A stretch of 54,637 nt of DNA from Defluviitaleaceae bacterium (GTDB taxonomy: Bacteria > Bacillota > Clostridia > Lachnospirales > WRAA01). Below, one piece after another: positions 2 through 4,490 of the stretch. The notes under the pieces are model-generated. The model saw only the letters and a list, made by a program, of their open reading frames with translations. It did no database searches and had not been told where the DNA came from. The first letter of the stretch is position 1. The number at the start of each line of letters is the position of its first letter. Both the position numbers and the translations under genes were made by a program. The DNA lies in NCBI GenBank assembly GCA_009780015.1, contig WRAW01000007.1:1-54637 (forward strand), read 5' to 3'.

Positions 2-1177
2 AGTATATTCCAACGCAGTGATGGTCTGTGGTGCGGTACCGTCACGACCGGGTATAATGCTGACGGGAAACCTGTACGCAAGACCGTTTACAGTAAGACC
101 CGACAGGATGTAGCACAGAAGGTAGCTACACTAACAGCGGATGTATTCAAACATGGGTATACCAGAGCATCCACGGTGACTGACAAAAGTTTCGAGGTGC
201 TATGCTGGGAATGGTTTAACCTGTTCGTTGCCCCAAGGCTTGCAAGTGTGACCGTGGATAACAGACGCAGACTGATGAAGAAGCACATCTTCCCGGTCTT
301 CGGGAAGATGGATGTTAAGGACATAGACCTTAAACGGTTACAGAGTTTCTTCAACACCAAGACCAAGGAACTGGCTATCGACACAGTACACAAGATGAAG
401 CAACTGATGAACAATTTCTTTGCATATGCCGTAGAGGAAGATGTCATAACCAAGAATCCAATGTCAAAAATTTCCATCAAAAAGAACGCAGGTAGCACGA
501 ACAAGGGTAAGGCAATGCGACCTGAGATACGTGCGAACGTGTTGAACTGGGTTATGGCAAATCCCATCTTAAAGCCTATCGTCATTACTTTCACGCTAAC
601 CGGGCTTAGACCTCAAGAGTTGATTGCCATGAAGTGGGTAAACGTCTGTCTTGATACGAAGGTACTGTCCGTCAAAGAAGCTATGAACCGGGTAGTTAGG
701 TTTGATACAGAGGGTAATGTTGCTTCTAGGGGTGCGGCACTCGGTACAACAAAAACCCCCAAGAGCGTAAGAACCTTTGTGATGCCGGATACCCTGACGG
801 ATGCGTTGCGGGAATGGAAACGATATTGTGATGCCAATGGTATCCAGAGCGACTTCGTTTTCCCAAACACCGAGACCGGGGAGATGCGAACATACTCGGG
901 GTTGCGTAGCTTGCTGGAGCGATTCAAGAAGTCCCACAAACTACAGGATGAAGGGATTACCTGGTATACGTTCAGACACACATTTGCTACAGTATTGCTA
1001 CAAGACAAACAGAACCCTCGCCTAGTAGCCGACCTGATGGGACACGTTAAGACCAGCACCACAATGGACATTTACGGAAGCGTCTTTGAAGATGCCCACG
1101 TAGAAGCCGCCCATGTCCTTGATAACATATTTACTGGATTACTAAAAGAAAATCCGTCAGACCCTAGACCAGTCTGA
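2..1177 (+). CDS. Tyrosine recombinase (phage/ICE-type integrase), 5' end outside window
   Basis: The reading frame of the 176..1177 ORF is open to the left window edge, so the gene is 5'-truncated by the window and the ATG at 176 is not its start. The first ~50 visible residues (DGLWCGTVTTGYNADGKP) resemble the AP2-like arm-DNA-binding domain of Tn916/phage integrases. A SAM-like core-binding domain follows, then a catalytic domain with TGLRPQE (Arg I), WYTFRHTFA (box with Arg II), LMGH and the nucleophile in MDIYG. The first His of the usual HxxR box is Tyr here. It would catalyse site-specific integration and excision of the element lying to the left; it ends 105 bp from a tRNA-Thr 3' end, the classic arrangement. 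Family call is firm; the element type is unknown. Confidence 0.93.
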   Translation, partial: SIFQRSDGLWCGTVTTGYNADGKPVRKTVYSKTRQDVAQKVATLTADVFKHGYTRASTVTDKSFEVLCWEWFNLFVAPRLASVTVDNRRRLMKKHIFPVFGKMDVKDIDLKRLQSFFNTKTKELAIDTVHKMKQLMNNFFAYAVEEDVITKNPMSKISIKKNAGSTNKGKAMRPEIRANVLNWVMANPILKPIVITFTLTGLRPQELIAMKWVNVCLDTKVLSVKEAMNRVVRFDTEGNVASRGAALGTTKTPKSVRTFVMPDTLTDALREWKRYCDANGIQSDFVFPNTETGEMRTYSGLRSLLERFKKSHKLQDEGITWYTFRHTFATVLLQDKQNPRLVADLMGHVKTSTTMDIYGSVFEDAHVEAAHVLDNIFTGLLKENPSDPRPV

Positions 1178-1182
1178 CGGAT
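1152..1182 (+). terminator. Inverted repeat over the integrase stop codon, possible terminator
   Basis: ATCCGTCAGAC (1152-1162) pairs perfectly with GTCTGACGGAT (1172-1182) around a 9-nt loop. The stop codon TGA lies in the right arm. There is no following T-run, so intrinsic termination is uncertain; it may act in mRNA stability or as part of the attachment region. Confidence 0.45.
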
Positions 1183-1199
1183 GTAACATCCTCTGAACC

Positions 1200-1243
1200 A
1201 CTGTAGCAAATCCGTGAGTCTACTGTAGCAATTACTGTAGCAA
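1200..1243 (+). repeat. Three direct copies of ACTGTAGCAA, probable integrase arm-type sites
   Basis: The decamer ACTGTAGCAA occurs at 1200-1209, 1222-1231 and 1234-1243, between the integrase gene and the tRNA. Its reverse complement TTGCTACAGT occurs at 1409, 1430, 1553 and 1574 on the other side of the tRNA. Short repeats flanking a tRNA core on both sides are what arm-binding domains of tyrosine recombinases recognise. Binding is inferred. Confidence 0.65.
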
Positions 1244-1282
1244 CGCAGATAACTTTAGACGGTTTTAGAGGGAAATATCGAA

Positions 1283-1353
1283 GCTCTCAAGCAGATTTGA
1301 ACTGCCGACTTCCTCCTTACCAAGGAGGTACTCTACCCCTGAGTTATGAGAGC
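1283..1353 (-). tRNA. tRNA-Thr (anticodon GGT)
   Basis: The minus strand folds as a 71-nt cloverleaf: acceptor GCTCTCA/TGAGAGC, D-arm ACTC/GAGT, anticodon stem CCTCC/GGAGG with loop TTGGTAA (anticodon GGT), and T-arm with loop TTCAAAT. No CCA is encoded. Its 3' end faces the integrase gene, so the 3' half was probably supplied by the integrated element and the 5' half by an older copy. Confidence 0.92.
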
Positions 1354-1642
1354 GAATGTTGATTTTACTGGGGTTTGTGGGTTTCCCAACCCCAGCGATG
1401 TTTCAAAATTGCTACAGTTTCCAGAATATTTGCTACAGTAGCCCCAGGCGGTGTTCGCCCTTACCAAGGAGGTACTCTACCCCTGAGTTATGAGAGCGAA
1501 TGTTGATTTTACTGGGGTTTGTGGGTTTCCCAACCCCAGCGATGTTTCAAAATTGCTACAGTTCCTTGAATATTTGCTACAGTAGTCTTCGGTAGTATGC
1601 GCTCTTACCAAGGAAGTACTCTACCTGCTGAGTTACGAGAGC
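1315..1642. repeat. Tandem ~144-bp units, each with a tRNA-Thr 5' half, a hairpin and two arm-type sites
   Basis: The sequence from 1315 repeats almost exactly at 1459 and again, more diverged and only in part, at 1603 (period 144 bp). Each unit starts inside the anticodon arm, runs to the tRNA 5' end (1353, 1497, 1642), continues through the hairpin CTGGGGTT/AACCCCAG and ends with two TTGCTACAGT sites. The third copy has only a variant tRNA 5' half (GCTCTCG acceptor side) and may be the original chromosomal gene. The units look like attachment sites left by repeated integration or by internal deletion of tandem elements. Confidence 0.8.
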
Positions 1643-2110: not shown

Positions 2111-2267
2111 GAATAAGTTCTTCTTCCCAATTATGTTTTGTAATGTAATAACTATAACATATTTAAATTAATAATACAATATTGAATATAAAAATATCAT
2201 CAAAGAAAATATATATATACGACATAAAGAAATATGTAATATTTAAATATATAGGAGCGTGTATATT
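2030..2267. other. AT-rich intergenic stretch upstream of the RHH gene
   Basis: Apart from the N-terminal extension of the AbrB-like gene (to 2110) this is very AT-rich with no coding signal. It must hold the promoter of the RHH gene at 2268, but the many TA-rich hexamers prevent choosing one. Confidence 0.5.
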
Positions 2268-2453
2268 ATGAAGGATAAGTTCATTCCGGTAATACCACCC
2301 GATAAAACTGTAATATCGATACGGATTGAAAATGAGTTGATCGCAAGTATTGATAAATTATCGGAAAAGCAAAGAATGTCGCGCAATGAGTTCATTAGAC
2401 AGTGTATAGTCTTTGCCATAGAGCGTCTTGACGAGAGCATCGACACAAAATAA
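2268..2453 (+). CDS. Small ribbon-helix-helix (CopG/Arc-like) DNA-binding protein
   Basis: The 61-residue product has the RHH layout: a short beta strand (KTVISIRIENELI) followed by two helices around RMSRNEFIRQCIVFAIE. The start is ATG 2268, 10 bp after GGAG (2254-2257); the GTG at 2259 in the ORF track is too close to that site. RHH proteins bind DNA as dimers, often as antitoxins or element copy-control repressors. No toxin partner is adjacent, so its target is unknown. Confidence 0.75.
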   Translation: MKDKFIPVIPPDKTVISIRIENELIASIDKLSEKQRMSRNEFIRQCIVFAIERLDESIDTK

Positions 2454-2454
2454 G

Positions 2455-2481
2455 ACCCGCCCAGCCGTAGCGTGAGCGGGT
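2455..2481 (+). terminator. Hairpin after the RHH gene
   Basis: ACCCGC (2455-2460) pairs with GCGGGT (2476-2481), followed by TATTT. It lies between the convergent RHH gene and the nuclease gene. Short stem and weak T-tract make it a modest terminator. Confidence 0.45.
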
Positions 2482-2492
2482 TATTTAGCGTG

Positions 2493-3319
2493 TTACAGGA
2501 ATTGTTTCATAAGCTGTGGCCATCTGGTTAAAACTTGATGACCCACTATAACTTCATATACCAGCCCCATATTTAGTGCCTCAATTATTCGACATAAATA
2601 TGATTTGCCCTGTGTCCACCAAGTTCTGTAAGCGTCTATGAAATATACGTGTTCAATATGAACGCCAGTAGCTTTTTCAATTTGATGGAATTCGTAGCCA
2701 TCAAGCTGTGTTTCATAGACACCGTCGGTCACTCTGCTCCCAAAGGTCGTAGCATAGTAATACTCCTTAATTTCCCAAACTATCAACGGGTTGATAATAT
2801 CAGGAAAGGCTCCGTCATAACGACGAGAAGTCGAGCCAATTAGACGTCTTTCAGAGTCAAGAACATATACCAGACCTCTTGGATCATCATTGAAATCAAG
2901 TCCCTGAATCTTTTTGCCGGATTCTTTGATAGTCTTTTCTGCTAAAATATTAACCATTGCTGTAAAATAGGCAATTTGTCTCATGGCCCCTTTTTGCTTG
3001 TTTAGCGGTTGCTTGGAAGAATATTCAGCTCCAATTTGCGCCAATAATCTTTCGTATTCTGCTTTTGCAGTATTAGCATCCATTAGGGCAGGCTCAACAG
3101 AATTATTCAATAAGTTTGCTCTTAAATCCAAATATCTCTGCACTTTAAGCAATTGAAGTTCATCAATGAACAGATGATTTTTTCGTAATGCGGCTTTAAT
3201 AGTATCTATTGAAAATTGGTTAGTTATACTATTTTTTAATAACCTAATGTTTCAGATACATATTTTACAATAGCCCAAAAGTCGATATCTAGCGATTTAA
3301 AATCCTCAAACCGTCTCAT
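2493..3319 (-). pseudogene. Type II restriction endonuclease (PD-(D/E)XK-like), frameshifted
   Basis: The intact 3' part (2493..3152 in the track) contains PDIINPLIVWEIKEY, a PD-(D/E)xK-like pattern. Its frame stays open upstream to about 3250 without a start codon. A second frame begins at ATG 3319-3317 after GGAG, reads MRRFEDFKSLDIDFWAIV and stops at TAA 3238-3236. Restoring one base near 3238-3241 joins the frames into one ~275-residue protein. The ATG overlaps the controller gene's end by 14 bp, as in C-R operons. It is either inactivated or a base is missing in the sequence. Recognition site unknown. Confidence 0.72.
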
Positions 3320-3542
3320 CTGTTTTCTCCATCTCTAAGAAAATTTCAGATAACCCAATACCAAAAGCCGTGGTAATTTTTCCAATATTAGAAAGCGATA
3401 TGTTTCTCTTACCTAACTCAATATCGCTTATATATGTTCTATGCAGAGAACATATATCGGCTAAGTCTTCTTGTGAGAGTTTTCTTTTAAGTCGTTGTTC
3501 GCGAACAGCTCGCCCAAACTTCTCAAGGAGTTTTTCCTGCAT
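3306..3542 (-). CDS. Restriction-modification controller (C) protein, XRE-type HTH
   Basis: The 78-residue protein is a single helix-turn-helix domain (LSQEDLADICSLHRTYISDIE), the normal size of C proteins. It starts at ATG 3542, 7 bp after GGAGGTG. It lies directly upstream of and overlaps the endonuclease gene, and is divergent from the methylase. C proteins bind C-boxes to activate then repress their own C-R operon, delaying nuclease expression until DNA is methylated. The matching operator is visible at 3584-3609. Confidence 0.88.
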   Translation of the reverse strand: MQEKLLEKFGRAVREQRLKRKLSQEDLADICSLHRTYISDIELGKRNISLSNIGKITTAFGIGLSEIFLEMEKTDETV

Positions 3543-3566
3543 AACCTGACACCTCCAACAAAATAA

Positions 3567-3609
3567 ATTATAATCAATATGAATACTATAAGTCTACAGA
3601 CTATAAGTT
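3567..3609. promoter_or_regulatory. C-box operator and C-gene promoter in the R-M divergent region
   Basis: Two copies of ACTATAAGT (3585-3593 and 3600-3608) lie in tandem; on the minus strand they read ACTTATAGT, matching C-boxes of controller proteins. Towards the C gene a TATAAT -10 (3572-3567) follows, with a TAGACT -35-like hexamer inside the operator. The methylase reads the other way from just beyond, so one operator can control both directions. Match to C-boxes is from memory of the family. Confidence 0.7.
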
Positions 3610-3632
3610 GCAATATTGTGAGGTGTTGGCGG

Positions 3633-4490
3633 GTGATTCCGGCATTGTTGAAATGGATTGGCAATAAGCAGCGATTTGCAGAGATAATAATAAGCTATAT
3701 GCCCCATAATTTTAACAGATATTTTGAACCTTTTCTGGGTAGTGGAGCCGTACTTGGCGAACTCCTAAATTACGATTTGAATAAATTGTTTCCGCGTTTT
3801 AACCGCGCATATGCAAGTGATGTGCTTCCTTTCTTAGTAGACATTTTTAACTTAGTGAAGAATGATCCTCAGAGTTTAGTACAATACTATAAAAATGAAA
3901 TTACAGCATACTACGAGGATCCAAATTCAGTGTATGATGCAACTCTTCAAAGATTTAATAAAATCCCCAATGCATATGATTTTTGTGTTCTATCTCGGAC
4001 ATGTTATTCTGGTGTTATACGTTTCAGAAAAACAGATGGGCATATGAGTACTCCCCGTGGCCCACATAATCCTATTAAGCCTCAAACATTTGAGCAGAGG
4101 GTTTTATTATGGTCATCTCTTGTACAAAAAGCTGACTTTTCAGTATCTAACTTTTTTGATGCCATGGATATTCCGAATGAAGGAGATGTTGTGTATTGTG
4201 ATCCACCATACACGCATAGTCAAAGCATAATTTATGGAGCTCAAGGCTTTTCGATAGATAAGCTGTGGATAAAAATTGAAGAATGTAAAGCGCGAGGGGC
4301 GTTTGTAATGTTATCAATAAATGGGATGAGAGAATCAACTTCAAAAGATATTTCAGTTGTGTATCCGCAAGGTTTATTTGAGCGAGAAATCGTTATTGAT
4401 TGCGGAATATCAATGATAAATCGCTTGCAAAGCTCTGGTAAGGAAATGACAAATGAGAATGTGCATGATAAGCTCTTACTTACATGGTAG
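3633..4490 (+). CDS. Adenine-N6 DNA methyltransferase (D12 class), modification subunit
   Basis: The N-terminal LLKWIGNKQRFAEII and EPFLGSGAV form the AdoMet-binding motif I of Dam/DpnM-like enzymes; VVYCDPPYTHS is catalytic motif IV (DPPY). It transfers methyl from AdoMet to adenine N6 in the R-M target. The track's ATG 3579 lies upstream of the C-box and lacks a ribosome site; GTG 3633, 7 bp after AGGTG, begins VIPALLKW exactly where the family begins, giving 285 residues. The methylase is intact although its nuclease partner is frameshifted, so it may act as a solitary methylase now. Confidence 0.88.
   Translation: MIPALLKWIGNKQRFAEIIISYMPHNFNRYFEPFLGSGAVLGELLNYDLNKLFPRFNRAYASDVLPFLVDIFNLVKNDPQSLVQYYKNEITAYYEDPNSVYDATLQRFNKIPNAYDFCVLSRTCYSGVIRFRKTDGHMSTPRGPHNPIKPQTFEQRVLLWSSLVQKADFSVSNFFDAMDIPNEGDVVYCDPPYTHSQSIIYGAQGFSIDKLWIKIEECKARGAFVMLSINGMRESTSKDISVVYPQGLFEREIVIDCGISMINRLQSSGKEMTNENVHDKLLLTW

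Follow-up and report, generated by a model that had tools for sequence, protein, structure and literature searches.

The window, a stretch of 54,637 nucleotides from a Defluviitaleaceae bacterium (contig C7; WRAW01000007.1), opens inside a tyrosine integrase gene (2–1177, plus strand) whose 5′ end is cut off by the start of the contig, the first base of which is window position 1. The encoded protein scores above the Pfam cut-offs for Phage_integrase (E 1.2e-17), Phage_int_M and Phage_int_SAM_3. The gene is followed, in order, by a hairpin, three direct arm-type sites, a complete tRNA-Thr(GGT), two inverted arm-type sites and cores spaced 144 bp apart. The hairpin (1152–1182, plus strand), directly 3′ of the integrase gene, is a probable terminator; its fold has a z of −5.7 and no shuffled sequence was equally stable.

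Attachment DNA beside the integrase gene

The direct arm-type sites, TTGCTACAGT(A/G), occupy positions 1199–1209, 1221–1231 and 1233–1243 on the minus strand (1199–1243 overall), and the inverted pair lies at 1409–1419 and 1430–1440 on the plus strand (1409–1440 overall), close to the resident element's right end. Both sets were located with a mismatch search. When up to two mismatches are allowed, TTGCTACAGTA matches 19 times where 9.45 matches are expected, a count that none of the shuffles reached. The octamer GCTACAGT occurs eight times on the two strands of the 54.6 kb, with seven occurrences between 1200 and 1580 and one in the integrase gene. Positions 984–1005 of that gene hold TTGCTACAGTATTGCTACA, an arm-like double site within a conserved coding motif, possibly by coincidence.

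ARAGORN calls one tRNA-Thr(GGT), at 1282–1353 on the minus strand, with acceptor stem GCTCTCA/TGAGAGC. The sequence CTTACCAAGG is present at 1316, 1460 and 1604, at spacings of exactly 144 and 144 bp with paired inverted arms in each interval, and a repeat search returned two 144-nt copies of 92% identity and a 22-nt core in three copies. Repeat and core searches place the internal core (CCTTACCAAGG, 1315–1325, plus strand) in the anticodon loop of the tRNA. Tool-based tRNA prediction, the repeat search and the octamer counts thus agree with an earlier note on this DNA that the complete tRNA, the 144-bp units and the arm sites are real, and its proposal that they are attachment DNA of the adjacent integrase, composed of core and arm-type sites, is borne out.

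Units 1 and 2 each contain a promoter-like site, TTGGGA-16-TAAAAT, directed at the tRNA 5′ half of the same unit (two found, 0.5 expected). In unit 1 this site lies at 1362–1389 on the minus strand, upstream of the complete tRNA, and overlaps a hairpin at 1367–1396; in unit 2 (1460–1603, plus strand), which likewise holds a tRNA 5′ half, it lies at 1506–1533, and arm sites at 1553–1563 and 1574–1584 and a terminal segment of 18–20 bp complete the unit. The motif TAAAATCAACAT(T/C)CG in the promoter region is conserved in three related copies described below (C81, L059 and G027). The earlier note had also assigned a hairpin to each unit. The window copy near the tRNA does fold well (z = −2.9), but those of C81 and L059 are weak (z = −0.7 and −1.4), and we rejected the hairpin as a conserved functional element.

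The second core (CCTTACCAAGG, 1459–1469, plus strand), the putative end core of the resident element (core_R), matches the junction between element and target in G027, C81 and L059. The outermost core (1603–1613) belongs to GCTCTCGTAACTCAGCAGGTAGAGTACTTCCTTGGTAAGA (1603–1642, minus strand), which is distinguished by its own acceptor strand (GCTCTCG) and D-loop; G027, G197 and G013 have homologous orphan halves at this junction. What had been described as a diverged third core of the array (1604–1642) therefore does not constitute a unit and is best read as the orphaned 5′ half of a separate host tRNA-Thr. Adjoining this half, the window carries a ribbon-helix-helix gene, a DUF7687 gene, an HTH gene and a Dam-family methyltransferase gene (2259–4490), and then ddl; the 2259–4490 genes resemble a restriction-modification module and share the tRNA locus with the element.

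Related elements and their integration sites

An exact tRNA-body pattern was found on 11 contigs, all from Defluviitaleaceae metagenome-assembled genomes (MAGs), and all data used here, those on the relatives included, come from MAGs; most carry the native gene and three the structure seen in the window. Both ends of an element were located in three cases, Co191P1bin64 (G027), Emb289P1bin51 (G197) and a second copy in the genome of the window (C81/C24), and in each the core stands as a direct repeat at the two ends of the inserted DNA. The other att copy, to which the earlier note had pointed as a check, is thus available in these three cases but not for the window element, since a core search of its bin (84% complete) found neither the left end nor the host 3′ half.

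In Co191P1bin64 the two ends lie 21,688 bp apart on one contig (G027:C6, WQRX01000006). At the right end, the complete tRNA is separated by 145 bp from the core, beyond which stands a 5′ half that belongs to another, host tRNA-Thr, and the left end stands after the matching host 3′ half. The host halves (GCTGCTG/CAGCAGC) pair at 7/7 positions, as does the element's own stem; hybrid stems of host and element pair at 4–5/7. The body of the tRNA is identical to that in the window, in an element with a 59% identical integrase and another host tRNA; on this evidence the complete tRNA of the window is element cargo and not the host gene. Genes of the 21.7-kb element (L016, L051) include those for an FtsK/SpoIIIE-type ATPase, a ThiF-family protein, a reverse transcriptase and resolvases; a scan of part of its proteins turned up no relaxase. 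Elsewhere in this genome, G027:C56 (L018, 6906–8385) carries a second integrase of this family, in broken form, the P side of which abuts an apparent tRNA-Gly(GCC) 3′ half with core CCTTGGCAAG; the target may here have switched to a different tRNA whose anticodon loop is similar.

In Emb289P1bin51, the right end (L059, 144 bp) and the left end (L069) both have arms of the ACTGCAA type, the host halves pair 7/7 and the integrase copy of L059 is interrupted by a stop. G013 holds a further element, in which the integrase has decayed, the unit measures 125 bp and the orphan 5′ half is clearly degenerate. The core CTTACCAAGG is kept in the element tRNA of C7, C81, L059, G027 and G013.

The second copy in the window's genome, the one further match of a DNA search there, was recognized on contig C81, where the integrase is 87% identical. 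It has the same arms, an identical layout of the direct sites and a complete tRNA-Thr, whose acceptor stem (GCTGATG/CATCAGC) differs from that in the window but pairs perfectly; a second core follows after 144 bp, and beyond it lies a DUF4276 gene without its 5′ end. A core search placed the left end of this element on contig C24, where the start of the DUF4276 gene is followed by the core and, 84–103 bp past it, by two direct arms (CTGTAGCAA/TTGTAGCAA) with the arm sequence of C81. The two DUF4276 pieces were compared separately, each against the same intact plasmid homologue, and align to its residues 1–37 and 36–214, meeting at the core; the short N-terminal piece is not recognized by Pfam, and the upstream ATPase gene (67% identical) is also shared. 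Because the pieces meet at the core, the element ends at the core beside the inverted arms, and the complete tRNA is inside it. The C81/C24 element moved whole into a protein gene unable to contribute any tRNA half.

The split gene (C24, L097, 2585–4109; C81, L003, 8467–9048) follows an AAA ATPase gene whose product resembles MAD3 of a methylation-associated defense system (NCBIfam E 1.3e-30, far below the cut-off). The ATPase–DUF4276 pair is also present on Pseudomonas and Rahnella plasmids and is probably a defense pair broken by the mobile element. Within the left 2.7 kb of the element (C24, L097, 89–2541) are genes for a ParA-type ATPase and a macro-domain protein; the reading frame preceding the latter resembles DarT by eye, and we suspect a DarTG-like pair.

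The element architecture is well supported by these comparisons. The right ends of the relatives read integrase, direct arms, element tRNA-Thr with promoter-like region, inverted arms, ∼18 bp, core and host 5′ half, and the left ends read host 3′ half, core, ∼85–95 bp and direct arms. The att core of this element family is the anticodon-loop sequence CCTTACCAAGG. Comparison of the junctions shows integration at the end cores to split the host tRNA-Thr, with the element bringing a complete tRNA 144–145 bp inside its integrase-proximal end. Since the whole element sits between the host halves with a complete tRNA inside, it breaks the host tRNA and yet supplies a replacement.

The arm sequences of the three element lineages are CTGTAGCAA, ACTGCAA and GACAGCA, and across lineages the integrases are, where measured, 59–87% identical to that of the window. 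Within a lineage, the integrase-side, unit and left-end arms have one sequence in common, and all three switch together between lineages. Co-variation of this kind with the integrase is the behavior that integrase arm-type sites should show.

The structure is rare. Among the 392 genomes of the order, CTTACCAAGG-N122..150-CTTACCAAGG pairs occur in four, three of which have the window-type structure at 144 or 145 bp, and a reversed-pattern control gave no matches. The fourth match, G013:C23, has another spacing and lies within unrelated repetitive sequence; a core match at G000:C5 lies outside any tRNA and looks like chance. The 38 genomes of the G027 family contain the tandem-core pattern only in the two known copies, and its six matches in viral contigs, none of which coincides with a tRNA, all reflect chance or unrelated repeats. 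The integrase protein had no match in the genome contig and viral contig collections, its matches among phage and plasmid records were distant (best 31%), and searches at the genus and family levels, which covered one other genome, gave none. At three further loci (L100, 1135–1230; L102, 8287–8390; L103, 946–990) tRNA-Thr 3′ flanks keep integrase-side sequence without an integrase. These stretches adjoin native-looking genes in L102 and L103 and a split gene in L100, and appear to be traces of earlier insertions.

Origin of the second unit

Each intact relative has one 144–145-bp segment, and by this comparison unit 1 (1316–1459) appears to be the resident element's own right end and unit 2 (1460–1603) an additional copy of such an end. 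The earlier note had regarded both units as possible remnants of tandem insertions. We judge this to be right for the extra unit, but unit 1 is better accounted for as the right end that the resident element would normally have. Unit 2 is an att-flanked segment with a core at both ends and no gene or integrase, and it adjoins an autonomous element. As the 104-nt perfect tandem repeat may be miscounted by a short-read assembler, the true number of units may differ.

The first 104 nt of the two units are identical and all 12 differences fall within the last 40 nt, a clustering with a chance of ∼1e-8 to 1e-7 if mutations were evenly spread. The end of unit 2 matches C81 at 32/39 positions and unit 1 at 28/39. 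The L059 and G027 elements are related in the same way, having the tRNA/promoter part in common and differing in arms and ends. Because 104 nt are identical and 12 of the following 40 differ, units 1 and 2 resemble two different elements and are unlike a plain tandem duplication. If slippage or unequal recombination had locally duplicated the attachment region, with no second element involved, this would explain adjacent direct repeats with a 100% identical first 104 nt, but not the confinement of the 12 differences to the part where unit 2 is nearer to C81 than to unit 1, nor a repeat boundary that coincides exactly with the recombination core; we consider this origin unlikely. Still less probable, to the point of being hardly credible, is an attP with duplicated P′ arms that serve the integrase as a regulatory or accessory array. 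Arm sites do flank the tRNA core on both sides, as in an attP, but C81, L059 and G027 have a single arm set here and the decayed G013 a shorter one, and the repeat, of which the tRNA 5′ half is part, has its boundary at the core rather than around the arms.

A single unit can also stand alone. In Lab288P1bin22 (G196), at a locus pieced together from two contig ends with an identical overlap of 55 bases, the X gene is followed by the host 3′ half, a core, a single 144-bp unit, another core and the host 5′ half. The host halves on either side match, the chimeric acceptor stem pairs 6/7 and no close integrase was found in the bin (best match 30%). This solo unit, the core at each unit end together with integrase arms, and the sequence differences between units 1 and 2 could all be explained if the 144-bp segment were a minimal non-autonomous mobile unit, a circle of core, arms and tRNA 5′ half inserted by the integrase into tRNA-Thr cores, as the earlier note had suggested. 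In all five elements with at least one unit, however, the element 3′ half and the 5′ half of the unit beside it pair at 7/7 positions, even for the unusual GCTGATG/CATCAGC stem of C81, and therefore tRNA and unit normally travel together. Moreover, the C81 copy has the whole tRNA and unit although the protein gene that it occupies has no tRNA half to contribute, and no element of the close group with an intact integrase and zero units was found. We thus regard a minimal mobile unit as improbable. Should a gene-less ‘att cassette’ nevertheless be excised and inserted independently by the element's integrase, which we doubt, tRNA 5′ halves with new promoters would build up and be swapped at tRNA-Thr loci, and the 144-bp cassette would be among the smallest integrase-mobilized units.

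The reading we favor, and hold to be probable, is that the window contains the integrase-proximal (right) end of an integrative element targeting the anticodon loop of tRNA-Thr(GGT) and that unit 2 derives from an earlier element. Because the replacement tRNA keeps the core, an inserted element would offer three cores in direct orientation, at its left end, within the tRNA and at its right end, and we infer that the one in the tRNA takes part in recombination as well. If, on excision, the left-end core recombined with the tRNA core and not with the right-end core, exactly 144 bp would stay at the locus. The host 3′ half would then be joined to the element 5′ half in a chimeric tRNA-Thr, its intact core being a fresh target. 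An earlier element could have left unit 2 in this way and the present element could then have integrated beside it, contributing its own end as unit 1. Alternatively, a new element landing in the tRNA of a still-present element would produce the same right side. The solo unit of Lab288P1bin22 has exactly the structure predicted for an excision scar. We take a scar to be the most likely origin of unit 2, with roughly even chances of being correct, and the edge of a nested insertion to be a possible but less likely one; the two are indistinguishable here because the left end and the host 3′ half are missing from the bin.

Relation to known systems

In the Rhizobium phage vTRX32-1 group, as in Pelagibacter HTVC019P-type phages, integration through a short motif interrupts a host tRNA and a complete replacement is supplied (PMC8631192). 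The elements described here similarly split the host tRNA (orphan halves pairing 7/7 in G027 and G197, a 5′ half in the window) and carry a complete tRNA of the same isotype. Host, integrase and element type are all different, however. The replacement tRNA-Leu of the vTRX32-1 group also lacks the 12-bp att motif, which its authors interpreted as preventing super-integration (PMC8631192), whereas the tRNA-Thr of our elements keeps the core, 144 bp from the end and between two sets of arm sites, with extra end units alongside.

Integrase-less, att-flanked segments beside an autonomous element are known from ICE/CIME and att-flanked island accretion (ICESt1; Dehalococcoides ssrA islands), where they are left by repeated insertion at one locus (PMC3146451). 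Unit 2 is such a segment, but it is a leftover of only 144 bp with no gene, and is predicted to stem from the presence of two usable cores at one element end. Tyrosine integrases that target the anticodon loop of tRNA genes use a symmetrical core with a central overlap, together with arm-type sites, and their genes adjoin the att site (PMC8371274); core location, arm-type sites and the adjacent integrase are the same here. The usual outcome for such integrases is one reconstituted chimeric tRNA and a fragment (PMC8371274), whereas in the present case both host halves are orphaned and a separate whole tRNA is supplied. Our search of the open-access literature brought up no account of a replacement tRNA in which the core is retained and which leaves residues the size of an element end.

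In the window's bin, every complete tRNA-Thr(GGT) gene that we found is element-borne, and tRNA genes and att repeats in MAGs should be read with the caution that they may be element cargo. The arrangement provides a simple route by which a mobile element could take over a host tRNA function, as the split host gene can decay (compare the orphan 5′ half of G013). With the replacement tRNA still a target, the locus may record past insertions in 144-bp steps, and the choice between two adjacent attachment cores becomes testable.
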